In this document: one piece after another, positions 30,674 to 30,787 of the stretch
Numbering within the stretch: the stretch's first letter is position 1
Layout of the letters: each line of letters begins with the position of its first letter
Source: Thermoplasmatota archaeon
GTDB taxonomy: Archaea; Thermoplasmatota; E2; DHVEG-1
Length of the DNA stretch: 48,537 nucleotides
Direction: 5' to 3'
Assembly (NCBI GenBank): GCA_030619765.1
Contig: JAUXAU010000013.1
Location: 1 to 48,537, forward strand
The notes under the pieces: generated by a model
The model's input: only the letters and a program-made list of their open reading frames with translations
What the model was told of the DNA's origin: nothing
Databases searched by the model: none
Program-made: the position numbers and the translations under genes

Positions 30674-30681
30674 TTTATATA
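30674..30681 (+). promoter_or_regulatory. TATA box of RNA candidate 2
   Basis: TTTATATA is centred near 30677.5. A start ~26 bases downstream (30703-30704) coincides with the base before the 12-bp stem at 30705. Confidence 0.5.
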
Positions 30682-30702
30682 CTGGTATGTACAATATGTA
30701 TA

Positions 30703-30787
30703 TCAGAGAATGGGGGAAAGAAATTTTTAAATCACATCTCCTCACCACCTCACTAAATCCCCATTCTCTCCTTAAATGATTTTTAAA
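30703..30787 (+). ncRNA. Structured RNA candidate 2, terminal stem with CTCCTC/CACCTC loop
   Basis: AGAGAATGGGGG (30705-30716) pairs with TCCCCATTCTCT (30758-30769): 11 standard pairs and one G-U. The 41-base loop (30717-30757) has a single G and contains TCTCCTCACCACCTCACT, so it should be unpaired; CACCTC is the core of the 16S anti-Shine-Dalgarno end and complements GAGGTG. The 5-prime end predicted from the TATA box coincides with the stem. After the stem CTTAAATGATTTTTAAAG may terminate. No ORF fits. The plan matches candidate 1 but the primary sequence differs. It could act by binding ribosome sites; a role with the upstream operon (which has a GAGGTGATAT site) is speculation. Confidence 0.5.

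Follow-up and report, generated by a model that had tools for sequence, protein, structure and literature searches.

Within the window, the 48,537-nucleotide stretch of DNA analysed here, the interval 30674-30787 carries a hairpin locus that comprises a TATA box, a stem closing a large pyrimidine-rich loop, and a short tail ending in a T-run (Table 1). The anatomy described in the earlier note, i.e. the TATA box, a 12-bp stem with a single G-U pair, and a CU-rich loop of 41 bases containing one G, is exact by direct reading. Folding z-scores are only mildly unusual, -2.4 for 30705-30769 and -1.6 with flanks included, and because these values are weak, a single copy is insufficient as proof, which has to come from comparison. 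No match at the gathering score was obtained in the whole window with Rfam release 15, and no C/D family of Rfam matched on the plus strand; a sub-threshold match to SNORD123 (E 0.71) lies on the opposite strand. The RUGAUGA/CUGA pair of C/D box sRNAs is absent from 30703-30787 on inspection, and the locus was not assigned to that class.

Table 1. Coordinates of the features of the hairpin locus and of a second candidate hairpin in the window.
Feature	Position	Strand	Basis
TATA box TTTATATA (archaeal promoter)	30674..30681	+	sequence; equal spacing upstream of most family copies
Putative transcription start zone, ~30 nt past the first T of the TATA box	30703..30708	+	inferred from promoter spacing in archaea and from the constant distance between TATA box and stem
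Stem 5' arm AGAGAATGGGGG	30705..30716	+	sequence, folding, covariation (nine inner pairs modelled, 30708-30766)
Open loop, 41 bases, one G	30717..30757	+	sequence, folding
U-run within the loop's 5' half, shared by almost every family member	30724..30728	+	possible Sm-like protein site (inferred)
Conserved core of the loop, CTCCTCACCACCTC; antisense seed proposed to pair with ribosome-binding sites	30738..30751	+	conservation, target complementarity
Stem 3' arm TCCCCATTCTCT	30758..30769	+	sequence, folding, covariation
3' tail with final T-run (TTTTT, 30780-30784), possible archaeal terminator	30770..30784	+	sequence; inferred
Candidate 1: TATA box 2518-2524, stem 2547-2561/2615-2629, CU-rich loop	2518..2629	+	sequence, folding, R2 score

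A DNA search of the same genome, with a 151-base query spanning the element, identified three further places. There are three perfect occurrences of the loop core CTCCTCACCACCT in this genome, and copies C3 and C126 carry it with one mismatch. Among 40 relatives, the exact 13-mer was found in 24 genomes, up to six times each, whereas the reversed control occurs about once across all 40. Nearly all of these places follow a common plan, consisting of AAAATTTATATAC, a gap of ~25 nt, GRATGGGGGA, a U-run, UCUCUCCUCACCACCU, and CUUCCCCAUYC. A covariance model built on four own-genome copies (R1) matches 44 of the 45 genomes of the host's family, with a few marginal matches (E about 1e-4) elsewhere in the class. 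A second model, built on 76 copies (R2), matches all 44 host-family genomes at 1-12 copies per genome; for the own genome the number is ten. In a phylum sample of 293 genomes, 46 match R2 at E<=1e-5, all within the host's order, including rarer copies in the sister families of the host, and no strong-score copies were found elsewhere in the phylum. The invariant single-stranded motif spans at least 23 genera.

A strict pattern search of 84,980 named genomes returned 62 places, 60 of which are archaeal and labelled nearly always as Thermoplasmata, Thermoplasmatota or Euryarchaeota; the remaining two are bacterial (Bacteroidaceae and Magnetococcales), and about one such place is expected by chance according to our own rough estimate. 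The same pattern had no matches in viral contigs, and a viral-element reading was dropped on this ground. The host of the window belongs to the Thermoplasmatota. The named hosts of the copies include SG8-52-3, SM1-50 and 3300003432D, which one study lists among the Thermoprofundales (Marine Benthic Group D, MBG-D), an order for which metatranscriptomes exist that were mapped to ORFs in the same study (PMC6461988). Among open-licence papers, neither the loop motif nor MBG-D together with noncoding RNA was found. Judged from these comparisons, the hairpin is a member of an uncatalogued small-RNA family of an order of uncultured sediment archaea, with about ten copies in this genome.

Across 73 distinct sequences, 97.6% of the pairings at the nine modelled stem positions are standard. 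Double-sided changes occur in eight of the nine pairs (42 cells), a result equalled by none of 500 shuffles and approached by none of the slid-alignment controls, the counts being somewhat favoured because the alignment was fitted to the covariance model. The TATA box was excluded from that model; the exact TTTATATA nevertheless lies upstream in the expected zone in 65 of 99 copies, compared with 2.2 expected by shuffling, and its distance to the stem is mostly 30-34 nt. This fixed distance suggests that transcription would initiate at the base of the hairpin. The downstream gene is convergent at 8 of the 10 own-genome copies and at 33 of 37 copies in relatives, with almost no ORF overlap, indicating stand-alone genes and not leaders; a cis-leader reading was therefore dropped. 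The family thus displays compensatory stem changes across homologues, as in conserved structured RNAs, together with the own promoter and the intergenic, non-leader position of trans-acting sRNA genes. The small-RNA class proposed in the earlier note is strongly supported, and the genome-wide search for further copies that the note called for succeeded with the loop core and with both models.

A mobile or repetitive DNA element, or a terminator-like hairpin of a neighbouring gene with no RNA function of its own, would account for the multiple copies and their frequent location close to gene 3' ends. This explanation is nonetheless very improbable given the stem covariation, the fixed TATA distance, model scores that are strand-specific (67-77 bits, as against <=23 bits on the other strand), flanking genes that are mutually unrelated, and the lack of viral-contig matches. 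The probability that a CU-rich hairpin merely arose here by chance, within AT-rich intergenic DNA, as the single-copy z-scores of only -1.6 to -2.4 might suggest, is negligible, since the recurrence of CTCCTCACCACCT, the R1 and R2 matches and the covariation exclude it across the family.

Two variations in the surroundings of the hairpin were also observed. Copies L094-L097 (G000 C12, C119, C68 and C110) and a relative's copy (L116) share the upstream sequence ATTACAAATGTTSTATT, an imperfect-to-perfect inverted repeat located just before the TATA box (TACAAATGTTGTA in C12 and C119); it is operator-like, and a single transcription factor may control all of these copies. In two sister-family loci (L035 and L036), a second CTCCTCACC(ACC/TC) immediately follows the hairpin, and some sister-family members may carry two seeds.

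The present locus had been treated as one kind with another hairpin in the window, candidate 1 (Table 1). The general plan is indeed shared, the TATA box of candidate 1 being separated from its 15-bp stem by 29 nt, but the R2 score of this hairpin is only 15.4 bits (E 0.16), and sequence comparison would make it at best a remote relative of the family. Intergenic regions of at least nine genomes of four genera contain a second hairpin class with CU loops, in which the stems are longer and the loop CATCCTTTCCTCCTCTCCTCACCATCC is conserved (L259 in G020:C149, L260 in G001:C1:170664, and an identical 24-mer in seven further genomes). R2 picks up some of these hairpins (G057:C65 and G059:C216), and both candidate 1 and G000:C30 resemble L259 and L260.

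The earlier note further stated that the loop holds the core of the 16S 3' end, and suggested either mimicry of that tail or titration or masking of GAGGTG ribosome sites. The 16S 3' end of the host genome is GGATCACCTCCTAA, and the longest string common to it and the loop is CACCTC, six consecutive bases, so that the first statement was too strong and CTCCTCACCACCTC is not the core of that end. Mimicry is unsupported as stated, since the conserved core differs from AUCACCUCCU and is a much closer match than the 16S tail to the ribosome-binding sites (RBSs) of the predicted targets. The titration or masking idea survives in a sharper form, in which the sites are the RBSs of specific conserved genes and the main sequence is not GAGGTG but GGUGAGGAGA or close to it.

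Complements of the loop peak 8-20 nt upstream of start codons (52 6-mer matches, compared with 4-26 in other bins) and include the commonest Shine-Dalgarno (SD) 6-mers, AGGAGA and AGGTGA, as would be expected if the RNA were a general decoy, pairing with SDs indiscriminately and reducing translation as a whole. However, on average RBSs of the own genome, the real loop scored 54 at k=6 and the shuffles 38+/-9.5, and composition-matched shuffles reached the real loop in 16 of 300 cases at 6-mers and in 155 of 300 at 7-mers. This near-equality indicates that part of the complementarity is compositional and does not demonstrate a general SD decoy; the anti-SD mimic was rejected as such, the real loop being barely above shuffles on average genes. 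As two gene families also stand out sharply, a general decoy appears distinctly improbable.

The first of these families was identified by scanning for TGGTGAGGAG upstream of ATG across 44 genomes, which in two genera pointed to one and the same gene, encoding a glycosyltransferase (MKIVHFSWEFPP...) with the Pfam domains Glycos_transf_1/Glyco_transf_4 and a best NCBIfam match, below cut-off, to glgA_Coryne (GT4/glycogen-synthase-like). In most genera, its orthologs carry GGTGAGGAGA, TGAGGAGAG or related strings just before the start. At least nine contiguous complementary bases are present in 77% of the orthologs and in 0.9% of 898 background genes, and the orthologs mostly fall within the best 2-3% of predicted pairing relative to these background RBSs, a separation equalled by no shuffled loop in sets of 100 and 200; these values carry a look-elsewhere cost, as the target was discovered via a loop-complementary string, and the other orthologs are related and not fully independent tests. 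Gene starts were called mechanically, with a few glycosyltransferase starts placed by hand. The median duplex energy of the glycosyltransferase RBS, -20.0 kcal/mol, ranks first of the 39 ortholog families covered by the analysis (next, -14.4; overall median, -9.3 kcal/mol), and the same RBSs have a median of about -20 kcal/mol with the sRNA loop but only -8.8 kcal/mol with the 16S tail. Of four readable sister-family orthologs, two contain GGTGAGGA(G) and a third contains CTGAGGAGA; at this similarity, the gene is absent from 22 class members outside the order.

Pairing is weaker in the own genome, where drift has turned the glycosyltransferase site into GAAGGTAGGTAGA, with a longest exact complement of 7 nt; it ranks 15th among 389 RBSs for the 30738 loop and 7th for the C74 loop, and the near-exact complements in this genome include no single perfect mRNA target. 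Pairing of a loop is no stronger with the glycosyltransferase RBS from its own genome than with those of other genera (mean P 0.46), because the loop core is nearly invariant, and systematic loop-target co-evolution within genomes was rejected as null overall. In genus g4 (G007:C108 and G047:C137; L132 and L158 against L297 and L296), an sRNA copy lies ~2.8 kb from the glycosyltransferase on the same contig, and its loop CCATCCACCAT is an exact 11-nt complement of the altered glycosyltransferase RBS of that genus, ATGGTGGATGG; loop-target covariation is possible in this genus. In many genomes (L281-L310), a gene ending in ...YMNILQDLK precedes the glycosyltransferase and GGTGAGGAG lies in the short gap between the two genes, which places the site at an intercistronic position in an operon.

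The second family encodes a 131-aa membrane protein without a Pfam match (G009:C99, L267; orthologs L362-L391), which was chosen from one genome (G009). It is present in 37 of the 44 family genomes, often as two paralogs, and its RBS is often GAGGAGAG. A complement of at least 8 nt is found in 65% of the orthologs, compared with a background of 1.9%, and 1 of 200 shuffles was as good. Loop complementarity of these RBSs is weaker than that of the glycosyltransferase RBSs.

The main rival explanation is that the loop is a protein-binding site and that the RNA titrates a C/U-binding protein in the style of the CsrB/RsmZ sponges, for example a KH-domain factor normally located on the 16S 3' end. 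The multicopy plan, the invariance of a single-stranded motif across at least 23 genera, the lack of a pairing advantage of own over foreign loops with the target, and the lack of a single perfect mRNA complement in the own genome are all in keeping with such a site. It does not predict, however, the strong, shuffle-resistant RBS complementarity at two unrelated orthologous genes, and the core differs from the 16S tail sequence; we regard protein titration as rather unlikely.

We consider it probable, on the basis of what sequence analysis recognizes, namely the family with its stem and promoter, its stand-alone position and the conserved RBS complementarity, that this locus belongs to a multicopy family of trans-acting antisense sRNAs that mask selected SD sites. 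Transcription, pairing in the cell, repression and a partner protein at the U-run are parts of the model that we infer. In this model, 30703-30787 would be the gene for a stand-alone small RNA of ~65-85 nt with its own TATA promoter, in which a stem of 9-12 bp closes a pyrimidine loop of 35-50 nt. The single-stranded loop core UCUCUCCUCACCACCU would pair over ~8-13 nt with the SD regions of selected mRNAs, the best-supported predicted target being the GT4/glycogen-synthase-like glycosyltransferase, with the RBS GGUGAGGAGA or UGAGGAGAG, followed by the 131-aa membrane protein. Once paired, the RBS would be inaccessible to the 30S subunit and translation would fall, several copies with different promoters could bring several signals into the same output, and the U-run may bind an Sm-like protein. 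Loop-RBS complementarity beyond chance at specific conserved mRNAs, the hallmark of CU-rich RBS-masking sRNAs, is present in the family, while the test on average genes gives a weak signal.

The closest functional analogue may be LhrC of Listeria monocytogenes, a multicopy, G-poor sRNA with CU-rich motifs (CUCCC...UUUU) and U stretches in its loops, which blocks translation of its target mRNAs by pairing with their G-rich RBS (PMC4132741). Both have several genomic copies, an exposed CU-rich loop and a U-run, with RBS masking being only proposed here. LhrC, however, is bacterial, and each RNA bears three UCCC motifs together with an intrinsic terminator loop. The present family has a TATA promoter and one large loop whose conserved core is longer, and no kinship with LhrC in sequence was detected; with a single loop core and no UCCC repeats, its copies are not members of the LhrC family by descent. 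In archaea, sRNA154 and sRNA41 of Methanosarcina mazei are intergenic and trans-acting; loop 2 of sRNA154 masks an RBS, and sRNA41 has been proposed to mask RBSs (PMC5867862). The present family resembles them in being archaeal, intergenic and putatively RBS-masking, but they are individual Methanosarcina sRNAs and this family is multicopy, order-wide and from another phylum. In RsaE, SprD and FsrA, Firmicutes sRNAs with C-rich (UCCC) motifs that are cited in the LhrC paper (PMC4132741), a pyrimidine loop is the antisense seed to the SD; the core here is CUCCUCACCACCU and not UCCC, and the host belongs to another domain of life. The 16S anti-SD tail is likewise pyrimidine-rich and complementary to SD-type purines, but only CACCTC is common to the two, and the sRNA loop is by far the better pairing partner of the proposed targets.

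Targets are known for few trans-acting sRNAs of archaea, and we know of no multicopy sRNA family conserved across a whole archaeal order. MBG-D is among the commonest archaeal lineages of sediments, and the family described here combines a common sediment lineage, the lack of an Rfam entry, and a specific, conserved and testable target site. More tentatively, it is possible that the Thermoprofundales possess an order-wide RNA regulon, in which diversified multicopy open-loop sRNAs with their own promoters would exert shared post-transcriptional control over carbohydrate or envelope genes via non-canonical SDs. Such a regulon would have arisen independently, would be comparable to multicopy regulators of the LhrC or CsrB type, and might include the second CU-loop class (L259, L260 and candidate 1) in the same network.
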